This document shows, one piece after another, positions 11,827 to 23,903 of a stretch of 64,000 bases of DNA. How positions within the stretch are numbered: the first letter of the stretch is position 1; each line of letters opens with the position of its first letter. This DNA is from Deltaproteobacteria bacterium (GTDB taxonomy: Bacteria; Desulfobacterota; Syntrophobacteria; Syntrophobacterales; Syntrophobacteraceae): positions 1-64,000 of the forward strand of contig JAAYVE010000030.1 of the NCBI GenBank assembly GCA_012517315.1, read 5' to 3'. The notes below the pieces were generated by a model. That model searched no databases, was not told the origin of the DNA, and was given only the letters and a program-made list of their open reading frames with translations. Position numbers and translations under genes: made by a program.

Positions 11827-12729
11827 CTATGGGAGAGTCGATCCTTTTCTATGCGATGCGGTCCCCTTCACAACCAGGACCGGGCAAGGGGTGCGGGCAA
11901 GGACCCTTTCCACTACACTCCCCATGAGAAGCCTTTTGAAGCCCGTTTTTCCATGAGATCCCATCAAGATGATATCCACGCCTTTCTCCGAGGCTAATTC
12001 GAGAATGGCCTTGTATGCGGATCCTTCCCGCAGGAGGCATTGCCCTCTTACGTCTTCGCTCTTGAGCCGGGCGGCGGCGTTCTCCACGCGTTCCCTCGTC
12101 TCCCTGGCAAGCCCCTCCGCGAAAGCGGGCACCTCTTCGCACAGTTCCTGAGGAAGGTCCGTTGCCGAAACGACGAACACTTCCCCCTGATATATTCGGG
12201 CAAGGGACAACCCACGGGACACGGCAGCTTCCCCCCAGGGCGATCCGTCCGTGGCACACAGGATGCGGCTCCAGCCAATCCGGCCCTCGGCAGGGATCGC
12301 CAAAACCTCTACGGTGCTTTCACCCACCACCTTGGATGCCACGCTTCCCAGGAAGACTTTTTCAAGAGTATACCCTTTGGTACCGACGACGATCAAGTCG
12401 CACCCATGTGACTCCGCGAAACCGATGATCTCTTCGTGAGGCACCCCTTCCGCACATAGGGTGCGCACGCTGACATTTTCCTCCTCAGCCGCCTTCTTGG
12501 TGACGGCAAGGGCCTTTTCACAGGGTTCGCGAAGCATCGCCTTGATGTTCTTCACCCCGAACAGCCTGAGGTCTCCCTCATATGGCGGAACAACTGATAT
12601 GGCGAAAACCTCGGCACCCTCGTTGCGGGCAAACCTCAGGGTTTCTCTGAGAGCGTGAAGACTGGGTTCCGAGCCGTCCACTCCCACGACTATCTTCTTG
12701 TACGGTTGCTGCCGGCCGTATTGTCCCAT
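11827..12729 (-). CDS. Tandem-domain universal stress protein
   Basis: 300 residues with two complete USP domains. The first starts KKIVVGVDGSEPS and carries the nucleotide-binding loop GTKGYTLEKVFLGSVASKV. The second starts SRILCATDGSPWG and has GSHGKTGFKRLLMGSVVERV, a good match to the G-2X-G-9X-G-(S/T) ATP-binding motif. It is the last gene of the sulfite-exporter operon, 33 nt after the exporter, with GGTGGAG before its ATG. USP proteins are frequent partners of anion transporters; a regulatory role here is inferred from position. Confidence 0.9.
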   Translation of the reverse strand: MGQYGRQQPYKKIVVGVDGSEPSLHALRETLRFARNEGAEVFAISVVPPYEGDLRLFGVKNIKAMLREPCEKALAVTKKAAEEENVSVRTLCAEGVPHEEIIGFAESHGCDLIVVGTKGYTLEKVFLGSVASKVVGESTVEVLAIPAEGRIGWSRILCATDGSPWGEAAVSRGLSLARIYQGEVFVVSATDLPQELCEEVPAFAEGLARETRERVENAAARLKSEDVRGQCLLREGSAYKAILELASEKGVDIILMGSHGKTGFKRLLMGSVVERVLARTPCPVLVVKGTASHRKGSTLP

Positions 12730-12762: not shown

Positions 12763-13854
12763 TCAGCTCTCCTGGGAGACCACCTCGAGTGAGGAGCCCT
12801 TGTCAGGCAGCTCGGCACCCTCCTCCGCCGCAAACCGCCCTTTCCACATGGCGGCGAGAATGATGACGGCACCCACTGCAAGGGCCAGGCACATGATCCC
12901 AAAGCTGACCGCGGACAGAATCCGGATCGTGTTTTCTTCGACTTCAATCAGCTTGAGCTGGGCAAGGTACTGCGGAATGGCAAAGCCCCTGCTGAAGGCA
13001 ACGATGAGCATGATCGTGCCCATGACAATCTTGATCATGTGTTCTTTCACATACGTCGTTCCGATGGCACCCAGCTGCACACCCAAAAGAGAACCGGCCA
13101 GAATGATCAAAGTGAGGCGGATGTCGACCATGCCGTGGAGGGCCCAGTTGATGGAACCGCCAAGACCCATCACGAAGGCGATCACCAACTCGGTGGCGGA
13201 TGCGATGAGACTGGAGGCACCCAGCACATAAATCATGCCGGGAACTCCGATGAATCCCCCGACTGCAATGGTCGCCGCAAGCATGCCGGTGGCAAAACCC
13301 ACGGGAAGCGTCAACCACAGGGAGATTCTCACGTCGGCGGTCTTGAAATGAATCATCGGCGGCAGTTGGATTCGTTGCAGTCTCCTCGCAAGATTCGAAA
13401 CCATTTCACCCGCCGTATCCGTCCTCCTGGCCGATTTTCTGGCATCGTAGAAGACATACCCTCCGACGGTCACCAGGATCAACACGAAACTCAGGCTCAC
13501 GTAAAGGTTGGATCCGGCCTGGCCCCACTTTTCCAGGATGATCTGCTGAATCTTGATTCCGATCTGGACCCCCAGGGATGCGGAAGCCGCCATCACGAGA
13601 CCGAGCTTGATGTCCACCTGTCCATACTTGTAACGCTTGATGGCCCCCACGAGGGCCTTGGGGAATTTGTGGCACATATTGCTCGCCACGGCAACCGTTC
13701 CAGGGACACCCAGACTCATCATTCCTGGGGTGAGAACAAAAGCGCCCCCCGAACCGATGAATCCACTCACCAACCCTCCCGTGAACCCAACAATGAACAA
13801 ATACCCCACCATGATCAGATTCAAATCTATGAAATTAACCACTTCCTGCATCAT
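12763..13854 (-). CDS. TauE/SafE-family sulfite exporter
   Basis: 363 residues with about 8-9 membrane helices and the family's two-fold repeat. The first repeat has GGLVSGFIGSGGAFVLTPGM at about residues 25-44, the second ATIAVGGFIGVPGMIYVLGA around 190-210. Family members export sulfite or organosulfonates; in sulfate reducers this subtype occurs in a conserved regulated cluster. GAGGAG precedes the ATG (a second ATG follows at once). It is the central gene of a five-gene leftward operon that begins with a sigma-54 promoter. Hydrophilic residues between helices 4 and 5 (about 125-150) form a cytoplasmic loop. Confidence 0.9.
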   Translation of the reverse strand: MMQEVVNFIDLNLIMVGYLFIVGFTGGLVSGFIGSGGAFVLTPGMMSLGVPGTVAVASNMCHKFPKALVGAIKRYKYGQVDIKLGLVMAASASLGVQIGIKIQQIILEKWGQAGSNLYVSLSFVLILVTVGGYVFYDARKSARRTDTAGEMVSNLARRLQRIQLPPMIHFKTADVRISLWLTLPVGFATGMLAATIAVGGFIGVPGMIYVLGASSLIASATELVIAFVMGLGGSINWALHGMVDIRLTLIILAGSLLGVQLGAIGTTYVKEHMIKIVMGTIMLIVAFSRGFAIPQYLAQLKLIEVEENTIRILSAVSFGIMCLALAVGAVIILAAMWKGRFAAEEGAELPDKGSSLEVVSQES

Positions 13855-13958: not shown

Positions 13959-14276
13959 CTAGGCATGGAGTCGAGGCCTCGGCCGGGAGATTTTCCGAGT
14001 GGCAGCCGGCCTTTTCTCCATTCGTTCCTGAAGACGGGTTCTTTTGGCATCAATGCCCAAAAGGCTCCACAGGCTGCCGGCAAAGGTTCCGTGTACATAG
14101 GAAAAGAGAAACACGGTGGCAATGGGAAGGACAGCATACACCCCGCCTTTTGTGAAATACGTCATGACGACGGGAGCATTGAGATAGACTGCGGCATACA
14201 ACGCCGCCGTCAGCATCCCAAACCCGATCACCTTTCCGTACGGCCTCTTTCTCCGCGCATAACTTCTCCCCGACAT
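13959..14276 (-). CDS. Small membrane protein of the sulfite-exporter cluster
   Basis: 105 residues. A basic N-terminus (SYARRKRPYGK) precedes two hydrophobic helices (about 17-38 and 45-68), with a basic, Arg-rich cytoplasmic tail. Proteins of this kind appear beside TauE-type exporters in Desulfovibrio-like bacteria, as far as I recall. GAGGAG lies about 7 nt before the ATG. It sits between the USP-like gene and the exporter, with gaps of 58 and 104 nt. An accessory or stabilising subunit is plausible; there is no direct evidence of function. Confidence 0.8.
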   Translation of the reverse strand: MSGRSYARRKRPYGKVIGFGMLTAALYAAVYLNAPVVMTYFTKGGVYAVLPIATVFLFSYVHGTFAGSLWSLLGIDAKRTRLQERMEKRPAATRKISRPRPRLHA

Positions 14277-14334
14277 TGCATCATCTCCTCTTCATCGCGT
14301 GTCTTGGTATTCTCCCAATCGTTCCGTCCATTTT

Positions 14335-14928
14335 TCACACCCGATCCTTTGACGGATTCATGGCAAACGCTGTCCAGGCGGCATCCGCCGGGATTTCATC
14401 ACCACCAACCTCCGGGGTGGTCACGACAAACTCGATTCTTCGGACCTCCAGCTTCACCTCCCTGATTGCTTTCCTGAGATCACCGAATTTCACCAAATGG
14501 ACGCAGCTGACACCATATTGGACCGCTTTTTCTCCGAACAGCTTTCCACTCCTCGCGGCGTCTTCCTGGAAAGCTTTCAGGCTGGAACTCCCATCCGCCC
14601 GGGAACGCCCCGGTTCTCGACCCGGTTCCGTGAAGACATTCATCGCCACAATGTCGTGCTCCATCCTGGAGGCCAGCAGAACGACGTGATCCATGATCCA
14701 TTCCTCAAAGCGCGGCTTCTTGCCGATAACCAGAATCTTGGGGCGCACCAGACGGTCTTGAAGCATGAGCTCCCTGGCGTCACTGTGAGCCCCTCCCTCC
14801 GCAAGAGCGATGGCGGCCATCGTCCGCTCGCATTTCTCCCGAATCCTCCCGGACTTCTCGAGGCTCAGAGCCTTCGGTTCTTTAGAGGAACCGACCTTCC
14901 GGATGCGATCCATCAGCCTCTTGATCAT
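14335..14928 (-). CDS. Cytoplasmic protein with USP-like segment, sulfite-exporter cluster
   Basis: 197 residues. The start at 14928 is set by GGAGGAG 7 nt upstream; the frame extends further without support. The N-terminal ~65 residues are basic and helical and include MAAIALAEGGAHSDARELML, which resembles the small protein encoded just upstream. From about residue 70 the sequence looks like the first strand and helices of a universal stress fold (RPKILVIGKKP, IMDHVVLLASRMEHDIVAMNV), without a clear C-terminal ATP loop. It is probably a non-nucleotide-binding USP derivative. Second gene of the operon. Confidence 0.75.
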   Translation of the reverse strand: MIKRLMDRIRKVGSSKEPKALSLEKSGRIREKCERTMAAIALAEGGAHSDARELMLQDRLVRPKILVIGKKPRFEEWIMDHVVLLASRMEHDIVAMNVFTEPGREPGRSRADGSSSLKAFQEDAARSGKLFGEKAVQYGVSCVHLVKFGDLRKAIREVKLEVRRIEFVVTTPEVGGDEIPADAAWTAFAMNPSKDRV

Positions 14929-14971: not shown

Positions 14972-15151
14972 TCATGCCCGGAACATCCTCGAGCGATTCC
15001 TCGATTCCCTCCGCTGCAGCGTTTGCTTCGTGGCGTCCTGATCGTGCCGCCTATCTTCCTGCAACATCCGCTTGGCCTCGTCCCACTCTCCAACCTCTGC
15101 AAAGGCGACGGCCATGCTCATCATCTGGAACTTCTCCATCAAACGTCTCAT
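14972..15151 (-). CDS. 59-residue small protein, first gene of the sulfite-exporter operon
   Basis: Reads MRRLMEKFQMMSMAVAFAEV, then GEWDEAKRMLQEDRRHDQD, and ends RSRMFRA. GGAGAA lies 5-6 nt before the ATG at 15151. The segment MSMAVAFAExGxxxxAxxML repeats a motif in the N-terminal part of the next gene, arguing that both are real and related. It is soluble, with an amphipathic helix and a very basic C-terminus. It is the first reading frame behind the sigma-54 promoter (about 35 nt from the expected start site). Function unknown. Confidence 0.7.
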   Translation of the reverse strand: MRRLMEKFQMMSMAVAFAEVGEWDEAKRMLQEDRRHDQDATKQTLQRRESRNRSRMFRA

Positions 15152-15196
15152 GATGTTCTCCCTTCTCCCTGTTGTTGGCGTTGCCGTCTCCTCAAA

Positions 15197-15211
15197 CCAA
15201 GTTCTGTGCCA
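15197..15211 (-). promoter_or_regulatory. Sigma-54 (RpoN) promoter of the sulfite-exporter operon
   Basis: On the minus strand the sequence reads TGGCAC-AGAAC-TTGG, against the consensus TGGCAC-N5-TTGCA: the -24 element is perfect and the -12 element differs by one base. The expected start of transcription is near 15185, about 35 nt upstream of the first gene. An NtrC-type activator is encoded 3 kb away. Confidence 0.8.
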
Positions 15212-15289
15212 TGTATGATTGAATCACTATCCAATCGAAATACTTGACAATACGAGTAAAGGACTCCCCAACCAGCAAGTGGCGAAGGC

Positions 15290-15304
15290 GTTACAAAACG
15301 CAAC
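15290..15304. promoter_or_regulatory. Enhancer-like dyad, copy 1
   Basis: GTTAC-AAAAC-GCAAC, a 15-bp imperfect dyad (GTTRC-N5-GYAAC) centred about 87 bp upstream of the -24 element of the sigma-54 promoter. It is nearly identical to the reverse complement of copy 2. Confidence 0.6.
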
Positions 15305-15376
15305 AGATTACTGCAGTTCATTCAAATCATGTTTATTTTCAGTTAGTTGTAGGATGTTCCAGACTTCGGGCCAGAC

Positions 15377-15391
15377 GTTGCACTTTGTAAC
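15377..15391. promoter_or_regulatory. Enhancer-like dyad, copy 2
   Basis: GTTGC-ACTTT-GTAAC; its reverse complement is GTTAC-AAAGT-GCAAC, matching copy 1 at 13 of 15 positions. The copies are 87 bp apart centre to centre, a typical layout for NtrC-family activator sites. Confidence 0.6.
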
Positions 15392-15895: not shown

Positions 15896-17944
15896 ATGGG
15901 ACTGTTCAAGAAGACGGAAGAGCGCGAACAGCGGACACCTCAGGAACTGGTGGATCTCAAGCTGGCGGTCCAGAAGGCTCAGCTGCCTGAGAATGTCGCT
16001 CAGGTGGCTTTCAAGGAACTGGAGCGTCTGGAGAACACCGATCCCTCCATGGCGGAGTACACCATTGGTTTGACTTACCTCGATCTTCTCATTTCATTGC
16101 CCTGGAAGCGCTTCACCGACGACAATCTGGACCTGGCCCATGCCAAGGAGGTTCTGGAGGCGCGTCACTTCGGGCTGCACCACGTCAAAGAGCGCATACT
16201 GGATTACCTGGCGGTGCGCACGTTGTGTTCCATCGGGGCTTTTCACATTCTTGTGGTGGACGATGAGGAGATCGCACGGACGAACCTGGAATACGTCCTC
16301 AAGAAGCAGGGTTATGAAGTGGATACGGCGGCGAACGGTGCCGAGGCCCTGGAGTGTGTCAAGAGGAAAGACTACGACTTGGTTCTCACCGACTTGAAGA
16401 TGGAGAAGCTCGACGGAATGCAGCTTCTGGAGTCGGTGAGGAAGCTCTCCCCCCATACAGACACAGTCATGATCACAGGGTACGCCACCGTGACATCCGC
16501 CGTGGACGCCATGAAGAAGGGCGCAGTCCATTATTTGTCCAAGCCCATCAACCTGGATGAACTGAGAAAGATCGTCCAGCACATCAAAGAGAAAAAGAAG
16601 CACATCCAGATGAGTCGCGGGCCGATTCTATGTTTCACGGGTCCGCCGGGAACGGGAAAGACGTCCATTGGGAAAGCCATTGCAGAGGCCCTTGAACGGA
16701 CGTTCGTGCGCCTCTCCCTAGGGGGGATGCGTGACGAGGCTGAGCTGCGGGGGCATCGAAGAACTTACGTGGGTGCCATGCCGGGCCGGATCATTCAGGA
16801 GATCCGCCGGTTGGGAATGAAAAACCCGGTGTTCATGCTGGACGAAATCGACAAGATCGGGCAAGACTTTCGTGGGGACCCGGCCTCCGTTCTCCTGGAA
16901 ATCCTGGACCCGGAACAGAACTCCAATTTTGTGGACTATTACCTGGATGTTCCCTTTGATCTGTCCAGTGTCATGTTCATAGCCACCTCCAACGTCGTGG
17001 AGAGACTCCCGGGCCCTCTCTTGGACCGGCTTGAGGTTATTAGTTTCCCCGGCTACACGGAGAAGGAGAAGCTGCACATTGCCAGGAATCACATGATTCC
17101 CCGGGAAATCAAGGAGCACGGTCTGCTGCGTTGCAAGTCCCCTTTCACGGATGGCGCCATTTTGAACATCATCAGGGACTACACCCGGGAAGCCGGATTG
17201 AGGCAATTGGAGCGGGAGATTTGCCAGGTCTGCCGCAAACTCGCCCGCATCTGCCTCGAAAGCGGTAGTGACTACTTTCCCAAGTTGGTTGACGAAAACC
17301 TGGTGCAGCAACTTCTCGGGCCTCGTCACCACGTGAGGGAAGTGGCGGCGGGTGAGAATCGAGTCGGGGTCACAACAGGGCTTGTCTGGAGCGAGTTTGG
17401 CGGGGAGATCATCTTTGTGGAAGCCACCATCATGCGGGGCACCCAGCAAATCATTCTCACCGGATCCCTGGGCAGTGTCATCAAAGAGTCCGCCCAGACG
17501 GCCCTCAGCTTCATCAGGAGTCATTCACAAGACCTCGGTGTTCCCGAGGGCTTTTTCAAGGACACGGACATTCACATCCATATCCCGGCTGGGGCGATCC
17601 CAAAGGATGGTCCCTCCGCTGGCGTGACCATTGCCATGTCTCTTCTTTCCGTGCTCACGGGAAGACCGGCACGGAGAGATGTCGCCATGACCGGCGAGTT
17701 GACACTGAGCGGCCGCATCCTCCCCGTGAACGGCATCCGGGAAAAACTGCTCGCCGCCCAGCGGGCCGGCGTCAAGATGGTGATTCTGCCCCGTTCCAAT
17801 GAGGTGGACGTGAAAAACCTGGACGCCGACGTGACCGAGGATCTCGAGGTTTTCCTGAGCGATGACTTGACCGAGATTGTCGACAGGGTGCTCATGCAGA
17901 AAGTGTCCCGCCAGCCCCCTATCTCTCAAGCTGGTACCTCTTGA
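15896..17944 (+). CDS. Lon-type protease with an inserted response-regulator receiver domain
   Basis: 682 residues. The large N-terminal LON substrate domain is missing; residues 1-110 match only the helical segment before the ATPase ([22 protein letters not shown]). A complete receiver domain (about 117-230; acidic pair VDDEE, phospho-Asp166 in [10 protein letters not shown] near 217) is inserted exactly where normal Lon passes to GPILC. The AAA+ module follows (Walker A GPPGTGKT 249-256, LDEIDKI, RGDP), then the protease domain with catalytic Ser574 (PKDGPSAG) and Lys617 (REKLLAA). All catalytic residues are present, so it is probably an active protease whose ATPase is gated by phosphorylation. 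It overlaps the convergent NtrC-type gene by 26 nt. AGGTGA precedes the ATG. Confidence 0.92.
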
Positions 17945-19274
17945 TTTTCCGCCAGAGGGAAACTCTGTCGATCCCGAGCAACTCCGCCGCCTTGGTGCGA
18001 CTTCCCTGGACCTTCTGCAGGACCCAAGCGATGTACTCCTTTTCGTTTTCTTCCAGGGTCAGGATCTCTTTCCGGGCATGGCGTCTGATGACGGATGGAA
18101 GCTGCTGCAGATCCATCGGAAGATGCTCCATCTCGATTCGGGGCCCGTTGGCCAGGGTGACCGCCCTCTCCACTATGTTTTCCAGTTCCCTGATATTGCC
18201 TGGAAAGGCGTAATCCATGAGGGCGTCCATGACTTCCGGGGAAACCCCTTCAATCTCCTTTCCCTGCTGACCGGCAAATTTGTGCAGAAAGTGGTGGCAG
18301 AGCAGAGGGATATCGTCTTTTCGTTCTGAAAGGGGCGGCACATGGAGGGTGATGACATTGAGACGGTAATAAAGGTCCTCACGAAAGGTGCCGTTGTTCA
18401 CCTCCTGCCGCAGATCCCGGTTACTGGCCCCCAGGATTCGGATATCCACGGGGACCTCCCTGGTTCCTCCCACTCGCATGATTCTCTTTTCCTGAATGGT
18501 TCTCAAGAGCTTCACCTGCATGGAAGGCTGCATGTCCGCGATTTCATCCAGGAGAACGGTTCCTCCGGAGGCCGCCTCAAGGAGGCCCTCTTTCTCCCGT
18601 TGAGCCCCGGTGAAGGCTTCCTTCTCATGACCGAAAAGTTCGTTTGCCAGGAGTTCCTCATTGAATGCACCGCAGTTGATGGCAAGGAACCTCTTTGCCG
18701 CCCGGGGACTCAGGAGATGGATGGCTCTCGCCACCAGTTCCTTCCCCGTTCCCGTTTCCCCCTCGATGAGCACGTTGCAGTCCGCCGGGGCGACCTGGGC
18801 GATCAACTTGTTGAGAGCCTGCATTTTGGGGCTTTTTCCTATGATGAAATGCGCCCCTCGGTCACAGCGCATCTGGCGTTTTAGCTCGATCAACTCCTTC
18901 TGAAGCATGCGCTTTTCCAGCGCCTTGTGCACCAAGAGTCGCACCTCATCCAGGTTGAACGGCTTCGCAATGTAGTGGTAGGCCCCTTTCTGCATGGCTT
19001 CCACCGCTGAGGATATCGTTGCATAGCCGGTGATCATGATCACCTCGGTTTCCGGATAGAGCTCCTTGGCCCTTTTGAGGACCTGCATGCCGTCCACTTG
19101 CTCCATCCTGAGATCCGTCAGCACCAAATCATATTCCGTCTTCTCCAGTTCACGGAGGGCTTTCAAGCCGTTCTCGACCGCAACAGCCTGATATTTTTCC
19201 TTGTTCAGGATGTGGGTGAGGTTTTCCCGAGTGATGGACTCGTCGTCCACGACAAGTATGCGAACGGTATCCAT
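17919..19274 (-). CDS. Sigma-54-dependent response regulator, NtrC family
   Basis: 451 residues: receiver domain 1-120 with phospho-Asp54 (LVLTDLRM), sigma-54 AAA+ domain about 140-375 (Walker [18 protein letters not shown]-finger region [11 protein letters not shown]), and a Fis-type HTH at the C-terminus ([20 protein letters not shown]). The sigma-54 contact loop reads EAFTGA rather than GAFTGA. Its receiver is very like the one inserted in the neighbouring Lon-type protease. The gene lies 8 nt after the HAMP kinase, so kinase and regulator form one operon. It is the obvious candidate activator of the sigma-54 promoter at 15197-15211. Confidence 0.93.
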
Positions 19275-19282
19275 TGTGGCGA

Positions 19283-20710
19283 TCAGCCCTTCACGGAGGG
19301 TTGCGGGTCGACAGGAAGACGGATGAAGAAGGTGGTCCCCTCTCCTTCACGGCTCTCGGCGGATATCGTTCCGCCATGCTTCTTGATGATGCCGTAGGCG
19401 ATGGACAAACCCAGTCCTGTCCCGAACCCAACTTCCTTTGTGGAAAAAAACGGGTCGAAGATCTTTCCCAGGTTCTTTGCAGGGATACCCATCCCAGTGT
19501 CTTCGACCCGAATGGCCACCATCCCCGTTTGCTTTTCCATTTCCGCCGAAACCCTGATCTGTCCGTCTTTGCCCTGCATGGCATCGATGGCGTTCATGAA
19601 CAGATTGAGAAAGACCTCCTGGAGCCGCTGGGAATCGACCTTCACCATCAGGTCAGGGGGGATGTTCCGAATGACCTCGATTCCCGGCGGGACTTGGCTG
19701 GAGATGAGCCGCAAAGCTCTGTCAATGACATTCTCCAGGGTGACGGAGAGCATGGAAAACTCCCTCACCCTTGAGAATTCAAGGAGGCCCCTCACGATAT
19801 CCCTTGCCCTGTGAACTTCTTGTTCGATGTTTGTGAGCATCCTTCGCAGGAAATCCAGTTCCCCGTTTTCCAGTTCCTCCATGACAATCTGGCAGGATGT
19901 GGAAATGTTATTGAGGGGATTGTTCAACTGGTGCGCCACTCCGGATGTGAGGACCCCCAGGGAAGATAGCCGCTTGGATTCCACCAGCTGATCCTGACGC
20001 TTTTCCAGTTCTCCCACCATGTGATTGAATGCTTCCACAACCCGCTGGGTCTCATCTCGAGTCTTGAGTACGGGGAGCCTCTTGAACTCACCCCGGCTGA
20101 TCCGTTCCGTTGTGGACTCAACCACCCGAAGGGGTTGGATGATTTTACGGCTGACGAAAGGAATGAGCGCAATACCGAAAAAGACGAAGACAAACAACGA
20201 GAAGATGAGCTGAGCCTTGAGTTGCGCAATGATGAAAAGGATTTTGCTCCGTTCGAATTTCACCAGGGATTCCGACAAATCAACGAGGCTTTTGCCCGTC
20301 TCCCGCAGGGATTCTTCCAAACGCTCCGAGCTTTGTGCCTTGGACTTGTCGTCTACCGCGGCCATGAACCTCTGGTAGGCCAGAAGGTGCTCCCTAAGTT
20401 TCTCCAGTTGCACGCTCCCCTCCAGTCCCGTCGCCTGGGGCATCACGCTGTCAAGAATCTCCAGGCCATGTTGGACGTATTTCCTGTTTTCCACGAGGCT
20501 TTCCGGCAGACCGTAGAGAAGGTAGTTCTTCTCGTAGCGCCTTGTTTCAAGAATAGTATTGCTCAAATCCTGCGCAACTTCGAGGAAACGGACCTTGTTC
20601 TCGATGCCCAACAAATAATGATAGCTCAGACCGCCCAAGACCCCTATGGCAATGAGGCATGCGGTCATGCCGAGGACAATCTTCTGGCGGATGTTCAACG
20701 CGAATTTCAT
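19283..20710 (-). CDS. HAMP-domain sensor histidine kinase
   Basis: 475 residues. TM1 is at about 10-30, a helical periplasmic sensor domain of ~130 residues follows, TM2 is at about 165-187, then HAMP (about 187-240), the dimerisation domain with phospho-acceptor His260 (GVAHQLNNPL), and an HATPase domain with VNxxxNAIDAM, DTGMGI and GTGLGLSIAYGI boxes. GGAGGAGG lies about 11 nt before the ATG. It is in an operon with the NtrC regulator (8-nt gap), and its product is the probable phosphodonor for that regulator and possibly for the receiver of the Lon hybrid. The signal is unknown; sulfite or an envelope signal is suggested by the divergent exporter operon. Confidence 0.92.
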   Translation of the reverse strand: MKFALNIRQKIVLGMTACLIAIGVLGGLSYHYLLGIENKVRFLEVAQDLSNTILETRRYEKNYLLYGLPESLVENRKYVQHGLEILDSVMPQATGLEGSVQLEKLREHLLAYQRFMAAVDDKSKAQSSERLEESLRETGKSLVDLSESLVKFERSKILFIIAQLKAQLIFSLFVFVFFGIALIPFVSRKIIQPLRVVESTTERISRGEFKRLPVLKTRDETQRVVEAFNHMVGELEKRQDQLVESKRLSSLGVLTSGVAHQLNNPLNNISTSCQIVMEELENGELDFLRRMLTNIEQEVHRARDIVRGLLEFSRVREFSMLSVTLENVIDRALRLISSQVPPGIEVIRNIPPDLMVKVDSQRLQEVFLNLFMNAIDAMQGKDGQIRVSAEMEKQTGMVAIRVEDTGMGIPAKNLGKIFDPFFSTKEVGFGTGLGLSIAYGIIKKHGGTISAESREGEGTTFFIRLPVDPQPSVKG

Positions 20711-20816: not shown

Positions 20817-23800
20817 CTAAGTCCCCGCACTATACAGGGCTTCACGGACCTTGGCCACGAACTCCTTCAATGAAAAAGGCTTTTGGATGAAATGGCAGCC
20901 CGTATCCAGAACCCCGTGATGATCAATGACATCCGCAGTATAGCCGGACATGAAGAGCACCTTCAGGCCGCCCACCAGTGGAGCCATTTTCTCATACAGG
21001 GCCTTCCCGTTCATGTCGGGCATGATCACATCCGTCACCAGAAGATGTAGAACAGGGGGGTGAGAGGCCACTAGTTCCAGGGCCGTTTTCCCGTCGGGGG
21101 CGGTGAGGACTTTATACCCGTGCTGAGTCAAGATCTGGGCGGCAAGGGTGCGGACCTGTTCCTGGTCTTCCGCAACGAGAATGGTCTCATTGCCGCCCAG
21201 GGATTGCGAGGCGGTCTGGTCGGAGCCCAAAGACACAGCTTTTTCCTTCACCTGAGGGAAGAAGACCCTGAAAGTGGTGCCATTTCCAGGTTCACTGTGC
21301 ACACTGATGCTCCCGGAGTGCTGTTTGACGATGCCGTACACCGTGGCGAGTCCCAGGCCGGTGCCTCTTCCCATCTCCTTAGTGGTGAAGAAGGGCTCAA
21401 AAACTCGTTCGGCGGTCTGTTGATCCATCCCCGCCCCCGTATCCGTAACGGCCAGCATGACATAGGGTCCGGCTTCAAGAACCTGATGGCTCTTGGCTTG
21501 AGTGTCGTCCAGTTCCACCATTCCCGTTTGCAGCAGGAGGGTCCCCCCCTCCCGCATGGCATCTTGAGCGTTGAGAGCCAGGTTCAGAATGACCTGCTCC
21601 ACTTGCCCCACGTCGCCGCGAAACACGACGGGATAGGATGCGGGCTCGAACCGGATGTTCACGTTTTCGCGGATGGTCCGTCTGAGCAGCTGGTGAAAAC
21701 CGGTGATCACTTCGTTGAGGTCGATGGGCTGCACTTCCAGAGTCTGCCTTCTCGCAAAGGCGAGGAGTTGGCGCGTGAGGTCTCTCGCACGTCTACCGGC
21801 ACTCAGGATCTCCTTCATGTCGCCTCTCAATGGGTCGTTCTCGGACATGCTGTCAAGGAGGATCTCCGAGTATCCCAAAATGGGGGAAAGCATGTTGTTG
21901 AAATCGTGGGCGATGCCCCCTGCCAGTCGACCGACGGATTCGAGCTTTCGAGCTTGCATAAGCTGTTTCTCGAGGACCGCTCTCTCCTCCGCCGCCCTCT
22001 TTTCTTCGGTGATGTCTTCATAGGTGCACAGCAGACCCCGGACCTTACCGTCGTCGTCGTACAGGGGAATTTTGCTTGTGCGCAGCACGATGCGTGTGCC
22101 GTCCGGCGTTGTCTGAAACTCTTCGTAGTTGAGTTTGGGACGACCCGATTCCATAACCAGCCGGTCATCCGCCAAGTACTGCTCCGCTTGCTCAGCCCAT
22201 GCCATTTCATGGTCGCTTCGACCCACAATATCCGACGGAGACGAAAAACCTGCGTCCCGTGCAAACGCTCTGTTGCAGCCGAGATAGAGGGAATTCAGGT
22301 CTTTCCAGAACACCCGCACGGGTATGGTGTCCAGGACGGACCGGAGCATGCGCCGGGATTCCCGCAAGGCTTCATCCGCCCGTTTGTGCGCCGTGATGTC
22401 CACTCCCACGCATAGGATCTCCTGCACCACCCCATGGGGATCGCGAACCGCCTTGTTGGTCCAGGTCACCCACATGCGACGACCGTCTTTGTGCATGTTC
22501 TCGTTTTCGTTTGTGTAGTAAGAATCGGGGTTGTTGCAGATGTCTTGGAGAAGAGCCTTGAGGTCGCGCCCCGATGTTTCCACCTCCGGGACGATGGTCC
22601 CCACCACGTTACGGCCGATGATCTCCTCCTCGGAGAAGCCGAAGAATTCCTGGGCGAATTCGTTGAAGAACGTCACGCAACCATGAGGATCCATCCTCAG
22701 GATGATGCTCCTCGCGTGCTGGACCAGTTCACGGTACTTGGCTTCACTGGCGTGCAGGGCATCCTCTGCGCGTTTGCGATCGCTGACATCCCGCACGACG
22801 GCGATGAGCACACCTCGGCCGAACCATCGGCTGTGCCTGAGAGAAACCTCCACGTCAAAAACGCTTCCATCGTGGGGGCGAAGGGCTTTCCATTCAAAGA
22901 CGAGGTTTTCTCCCGACATCGCCCGTTGCCAGATCCCGGAAAGGCGCTCTTGTTGATTGTTTTCCCGAGCCGAGATTTCCGCGATCGTATATTCTCTGAT
23001 CCTTTCACGCGGCAACCGAAACATGGAGAGCATGCGGTCGTTCACTTCGAGGATCCTGCCCTCCGGGTCCTGGACGATGAGGGCATCGTAGATGTCGTGG
23101 AATACCTGGCGGAGGTTCTGTTCGGATAGGGCAAGGGATTCCTTGGCCTTTTCCTTCTCCGTCATTTCCGCCATGAGCATTCGGTTCCGCCGCCCCACTT
23201 CCCGCACGGAGATCAGTGCAGAAACGGTTATGAGCAGCACCAAGAGAAGCGCCCAATATTTGGCTTGGTCGAGGGTCGTGAGTTGGTCCAGAAGGGCCTG
23301 CTGCATGTACATTCCGGTCCCGATGTAGCACTGGAGTTCCGGGATTCCCATCACAAAGGCAAGTTTTTCCTGTGCGGTCTGCTGACCGGGTGGATAGTAA
23401 TGGTATCGGACAAACCCCCCATGGGTGTGAGAACGAGCCGTTTCTACCAGTTCGCGAATGATGTAGATCCCATGAACATCCTGCAGATCCCACTGGTTGT
23501 TCATCTCCATTCCCGGCTCAAAGGGCTGGACCAGCATGGTGCCGTCATAAGCGCTCATGAAAATGTAGTTGGGTCCGTACTGATCTTCGTACACAAGGCG
23601 CCGCACCCTGTCTCGAACGGCCGAAAGGGCGTCTTCTTTGGATGTTTCTCCCGACCTGACCCCCTGCACCACCGGTTCGATGGAATTCTTGGCCATGTGC
23701 ACCAACTGGGTGAGCCCGGCTTTCCTTTGGGAATCCATACTCTTCAGAAGATCCCTGGTCCAGAGATGAAAAAACAACAGGTTGGCCGCGGCGACGAAAG

Positions 23801-23903
23801 CCGCACTGAACAGGATGCGGGCATACGGCCCTCGCTTTCGTGTGACGGGATCACTCTCCCGGTCGGATGGGGGCGATACCTCGATGAATTCCCGGTTTTT
23901 CAT
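20817..23903 (-). CDS. Cache/PAS hybrid sensor histidine kinase
   Basis: 1028 residues. TM1 is at about 29-48, an extracytoplasmic single-Cache domain follows ([34 protein letters not shown]), then TM2 (about 218-235), three PAS/PAC units (each ending in a DVSDRKRAE- or DITAHKRAD-type linker), HisKA with [11 protein letters not shown], an HATPase domain, and a C-terminal receiver (about 905-1025, phospho-Asp in [12 protein letters not shown] near the end). The Cache module usually binds small carboxylates or similar ligands. GGAG precedes the ATG. The upstream ABC exporter gene is in the same direction 69 nt away. No output regulator is adjacent. Confidence 0.92.

Follow-up and report, generated by a model that had tools for sequence, protein, structure and literature searches.

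The question raised by this locus is how a five-gene operon encoding a TauE/SafE-family transporter is controlled, and which regulator acts on the intergenic region in front of it. The window (the whole stretch of DNA that was analysed, 64,000 nucleotides) holds the operon in the order orfA, orfB, orfC, TauE and Usp, together with a divergent Lon-type protease gene and the genes for an NtrC-type regulator and a histidine kinase (Table 1). The first gene had initially been given a start at 15152; its frame of 59 codons begins one nucleotide away, at 15151. In the window, orfB and orfC (13959-14928, minus strand) are separate frames, and in most relatives they form a single in-frame fusion. A frameshift between the two was considered and rejected, since the other frames hold no matching sequence, and the split is left as either a real separation or a divergent end.

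Table 1. Coordinates and strands of the genes and putative regulatory elements of the locus in the window.
Feature	Coordinates	Strand	Remarks
Tandem universal stress protein (Usp)	11827..12729	-	PF00582, 8.4e-61
TauE/SafE-family transporter	12763..13854	-	PF01925, 1.7e-37
orfC, small membrane protein	13959..14276	-	In most relatives, an in-frame fusion to the end of orfB
orfB	14335..14928	-	UspA-like fold judged by eye, without a Pfam hit
orfA, first operon gene, 59 aa	14972..15151	-	Homologues in genomes G163 and G099
Sigma-54 -24/-12 promoter element	15196..15211	-	TGGCACAGAACTTGGT; based on sequence and relatives
IHF-like site position	15228..15240	-	Conserved in relatives; window copy TTTCGATTGGATA weak, 6 of 9
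Proximal enhancer dyad	15290..15304	.	GTTAC-AAAAC-GCAAC, GTTACAAAACGCAAC; one-mismatch copy of GTTGC-N5-GCAAC
Degenerate third half-site	15356..15361	-	TGGAAC; place of the conserved TGYAAY, one mismatch in the window
Distal enhancer dyad	15377..15391	.	GTTGC-ACTTT-GTAAC, GTTGCACTTTGTAAC; one-mismatch copy of the same palindrome, GTTGC-N5-GCAAC
Lon-type protease with inserted receiver (residues 118-227)	15896..17944	+	Divergent from the operon
NtrC-type sigma-54 activator (receiver, AAA+, Fis-type HTH)	17919..19274	-	EAFTGA loop at residue 219
HAMP-type histidine kinase	19283..20710	-	Partner of the activator

The element nearest to the operon follows the pattern TGGCAC-N5-TTGG on the minus strand. 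Its description in the initial annotation as a near-consensus sigma-54 promoter holds for the -24 element (TGGCAC) and for the spacing to the -12 element, both of which are canonical, but not for the -12 element itself, which is TTGG where the consensus is TTGC and so is missing the C. In Desulfovibrio vulgaris, the sigma-54 -12 consensus is tTGCt (PMC4641369). A base other than C is found at this position at 39 of 49 loci, and the departure is thus conserved. The predicted +1 lies near 15185, 34 nt upstream of the orfA ATG. Taken alone, the TGGCAC-N5-TTGG pattern is not enriched genome-wide (5 matches, versus 17 for the reversed pattern). Across the 56 upstream regions described below, sigma-54 sites that agree in at least 7 of 8 positions face the operon in 35, with 0.64 expected, and face the divergent gene (Lon or kinase) in none. 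A search for a sigma-70-like promoter near the operon start found none.

Both dyads of the window lie in the intergenic region shared by the operon and the Lon-type gene, with the sigma-54 site downstream of both. The initial annotation was right that there are two dyads, but its motif, GTTAC-N5-GCAAC, is not the underlying palindrome, which is GTTGC-N5-GCAAC with one mismatch in each copy. Because both dyads copy this one palindrome, the opposite orientation attributed to them is no real property. Their starts are 87 bp from each other and, counted from the TGG of the promoter, 93 and 180 bp upstream, rather than the approximately 87 and 174 bp first given. Two one-mismatch dyads in the intergenic region of the window were reached by only 3 of 2000 shuffles. 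In the whole genome of 4.43 Mb, GTTRC-N5-GYAAC is found at 10 places, and no exact dyad other than the window pair falls outside long reading frames. The other eight were considered as further exact targets of the regulator and rejected, as all of them are inside long open frames; only two of these eight have a sigma-54-like site within 300 bp, in both cases at a distance of over 220 bp.

A search with the Lon-type protein returned nine loci with the same domain layout, and their neighborhoods largely repeat the gene order of the window. When 395 genomes of the phylum were searched with a profile of orfC, the operon turned up in 50, two of these being marginal cases, and 47 regions, chosen by protein and not by dyad, were mapped. 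The set of 56 upstream regions consists of those from the 47 genomes, the window and eight MAG contigs; a ninth MAG contig (L010) was left out as a duplicate of one fetched region. Synteny of Usp-TauE-orfC-orfB with the Lon-receiver gene, the kinase-NtrC regulator pair or both extends across many families.

The dyads, which the initial annotation had suggested looking for in orthologous upstream regions, are conserved there. The 56 regions contain 92 dyads with at most one mismatch, compared with 1.5 in shuffles, and a flank control of 648 kb contains 26 at the same threshold. Two or more dyads are present in 39 of the 56 regions, against an expectation of 0.015. The arrangement is preserved as well: 29 dyad pairs have a spacing of 85-91 bp with its centre at 88, with small groups of loci that space their dyads by 51-54 or 76 bp, and in most loci the proximal dyad starts 81 or 91-94 bp above the TGG. 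At 21 of 29 loci a third half-site, TGYAAY, lies some 30 bp (offset 26-34) away from where the distal dyad starts; shuffles give a mean of 0.43 and a maximum of 3. Many loci also have an IHF-like sequence about 29 bp above the TGG, and its mean best score is 7.63 of 9, versus 7.06 (sd 0.08) in shuffles. The third half-site, the IHF-like site, a -12 element that is usually without its C and a regulator with EAFTGA are details that are new here.

In outline, this layout resembles NtrC/IHF-type sigma-54 promoters, with paired palindromic sites upstream of a -24/-12 element and, in the relatives, an IHF-like site between enhancer and promoter. It differs from them in that the dyads are held at a constant distance of about 88 bp with a half-site between them, instead of being closely tandem, and in the frequent loss of the C of the -12 element noted above.

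The initial annotation had placed an NtrC-type activator and its kinase 3-5 kb away, and they are indeed there, with the regulator occupying 17.9-19.3 kb and the kinase 19.3-20.7 kb; the regulator has a Sigma54_activat domain with a Fis-type HTH. Directly upstream of the kinase-regulator pair, 20817-23903 on the minus strand encodes a large hybrid kinase with Cache, several PAS, HisKA, HATPase and receiver domains, which is at most a candidate member of the conserved cluster.

The connection between this regulator and the dyads is made by their distribution. Three genomes (G098, G361 and G306; loci L121, L131 and L125) have the operon, no relative of the regulator at E 1e-130 and no dyads, and these other lineages must therefore control the operon differently. 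Dyads are kept in four genomes whose regulator falls outside the mapped region: in G188, G294 and G314 it sits on a different contig, and in G163 it is at another place on the operon's contig. The dyads also remain in G297, G257 and G265, in which the kinase is the divergent gene and there is no Lon-receiver gene. Four genomes with a linked regulator (G273, G387, G097, G368) have no dyad within one mismatch. The Fis-type recognition helix, which is of an IDR type, is shared by nearly all linked orthologues, and paralogues have a different one; in a Desulfovibrionaceae-like genus with the helix LGISRSSLWRK, a changed single site, GTTTC-N5-GCAAC, is found farther from the promoter. Because the dyads are conserved, are absent from the three genomes without a close relative of the regulator and, in this genome, are the only exact copies outside reading frames, the NtrC-type regulator is very likely their ligand, judging from these sequence comparisons.

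The initial proposal of a sigma-54 promoter, paired dyads and a linked NtrC-type regulator and kinase for the TauE operon is thus strongly supported by conservation. The region may be read as controlling the orfA-orfB-orfC-TauE-Usp operon through an enhancer and a sigma-54 promoter, with the NtrC-type regulator assigned to it, and this reading is given a probability of roughly 0.86. The TTGG of the -12 element and the EAFTGA of the activator loop, both off consensus, count against the assignment. Under it, the linked kinase would phosphorylate the NtrC-type regulator, dimers of which would bind the two GTTGC-N5-GCAAC dyads and the weaker half-site. The DNA between would be bent over, probably with the help of IHF, so that the AAA+ ring of the regulator could remodel the sigma-54 polymerase waiting at 15211-15196. 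The expected output would be a burst of the TauE-family anion exporter and of UspA-type stress proteins.

The circuit had also been called complete, which it is not, as the Lon-receiver gene, divergent from the same intergenic region, had been missed. The inserted receiver of this protein follows the Lon N-terminal segment and comes just before Walker A. Judging from the alignment, the AAA+ and protease domains are intact, and the catalytic residues apparently are too. Among 51 matches in the genome, a number that includes the Lon receiver itself, the closest receiver is that of the NtrC-type regulator (54% identity, 132 bits; the next has 106 bits). This match fits a single kinase that may serve both receivers. 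The same kinase would then probably phosphorylate the Lon receiver as well, and one sensor would have both a transcriptional and a proteolytic output.

The circuit is already known from D. vulgaris Hildenborough, where DVU3303 (Lon-type), DVU3304 (kinase) and DVU3305 (NtrC-type) have DVU3302-3298 as their target. Rajeev et al. (2011) described DVU3305, DVU3304 and DVU3303 as a likely three-component system and noted the unusual make-up of DVU3303, which contains a lon protease. In vitro, DVU3305 binds in front of DVU3302-3298; it regulates these genes, and its site is stated to be conserved in relatives (PMC3333781). Kazakov et al. (2015) give the same DVU3305 targets and list the protein under sigma-54 activators (PMC4641369). 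In a 2023 fitness study, DVU3303, DVU3304 and DVU3305 show cofitness above 0.9, and DVU3299 is named as a putative anion transporter (PMC10102598).

The likeness to D. vulgaris is one of genes and target. The window shares the linked NtrC-type regulator, kinase and Lon protease with receiver, and a neighboring five-gene target that encodes membrane, hypothetical and UspA-type proteins and a putative anion transporter. The arrangement differs, in that the Lon gene of the window is divergent from the operon and the kinase-regulator pair, on the opposite strand, comes after the Lon gene, whereas the D. vulgaris genes are numbered consecutively. The activator loop also differs, with EAFTGA in the window and GAFSGA in DVU3305. 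The window system is therefore a well-supported further example of a known system and not a new kind of system. What is gained is the step from a DAP-chip assignment in one organism to a conserved cis-regulatory architecture with defined sites in many families of sulfate reducers, including exact sites through which a kinase with predicted transcriptional and proteolytic outputs would be read.

The architecture is also tied statistically to dissimilatory sulfite reductase, which bears on what the operon exports. The name sulfite exporter is a family name only, and sulfite is a putative substrate of this TauE protein. The PF01925 match relates it to the Cupriavidus necator TauE protein (PMC5840216), from which the window system differs in operon, regulator and host physiology and in having no more than a putative substrate. 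A sulfur oxyanion such as sulfite is the best guess, at slightly less than even odds: dsrA is found above the curated cut-off in 45 of 48 operon-bearing genomes, compared with 144 of 347 others (Fisher 7e-13, an optimistic p-value since lineages are not independent), and in two of the three genomes that depart from this, G331 and G293, dsrA is matched only in part, with some of the pieces at contig ends. This near-restriction to dsrA genomes argues against a different cargo, be it an organosulfonate, a chlorate-type oxyanion, thiosulfate or another anion, moved as part of a general anion or envelope stress response. Such a cargo is nevertheless about an even bet, as the functions of TSUP/TauE proteins in sulfate reducers are not predictable from sequence (PMC5840216), DVU3299 matters under chlorate (PMC10102598), and the DVU3299 operon, the DVU3303-3305 operon or both go up at high pH, under heat shock and in stationary phase (PMC3333781).

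A less probable alternative is that the regulator binds the dyads but, on balance, affects the exporter negatively or conditionally: the Lon partner might, for example, degrade an operon product, or the sigma-54 polymerase might stand in the way of another promoter. The sites are arranged as in an enhancer, no sigma-70-like promoter was found near the operon start, and NtrC-type proteins at sigma-54 promoters with upstream dyads are, as a rule, activators, all of which makes this alternative improbable. It is kept alive by a conflict of sign in the D. vulgaris fitness data, in which disrupting DVU3303-3305 is beneficial in chlorate and losing DVU3299 is harmful, an effect that the authors suggest may run through DVU3299 (PMC10102598). 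If the system simply activated the exporter, both losses should harm, and the opposite signs, brought out by the present comparison, are a misfit with that expectation.

That the dyads are sites for a different DNA-binding protein, or act on the divergent Lon gene, is far less credible than activation of the operon by the NtrC-type regulator. The intergenic region is common to two divergent genes, and DVU3305 of D. vulgaris also regulates its own operon (PMC3333781), but the strong sigma-54 sites point toward the operon and never toward Lon or the kinase, and the dyads persist in the three genomes without a Lon-receiver gene. Another binding protein is further at odds with the lack of dyads in the three genomes without a close relative of the regulator. 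That the pattern arose by chance in an intergenic region, as its unenriched sigma-54 half might suggest, is ruled out to near certainty by the shuffles, the flank controls and the conservation of sequence, number, spacing and co-occurrence in orthologues over many families.

The assigned regulator carries a natural variant of the sigma-54-contact loop, EAFTGA in place of GAFTGA, and is the sole protein with a non-glycine at this loop position among 30 sigma-54 activators examined in the genome. No mention of EAFTGA was found in the literature searched. A DNA pattern for an acidic residue at this position is detected in 44 of 395 genomes of the phylum, one per genome, and 27 of 30 acidic-loop loci that were read have the IDR-type recognition helix. 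The acidic residue thus appears to mark a subfamily.

It is conceivable, though rather doubtful, that this EAFTGA/DAFTGA subfamily works promoters without the C of the -12 element, loop and base being tuned to each other. All 13 linked acidic-loop orthologues with a called promoter are without the -12 C, as are many members with GAFTGA. A tight coupling between loop and base was rejected, as it is broken by G163, which has an acidic loop and yet a TTGCA promoter, with the regulator on the same contig outside the mapped region. Were the looser form true, it would amount to a private pairing of activator and promoter in a two-output (transcription and proteolysis) stress system of sulfate reducers. 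At a further locus, L215 in G132, where the orfC profile found no TauE operon, a Lon-receiver gene is present with an acidic-loop regulator and a kinase.
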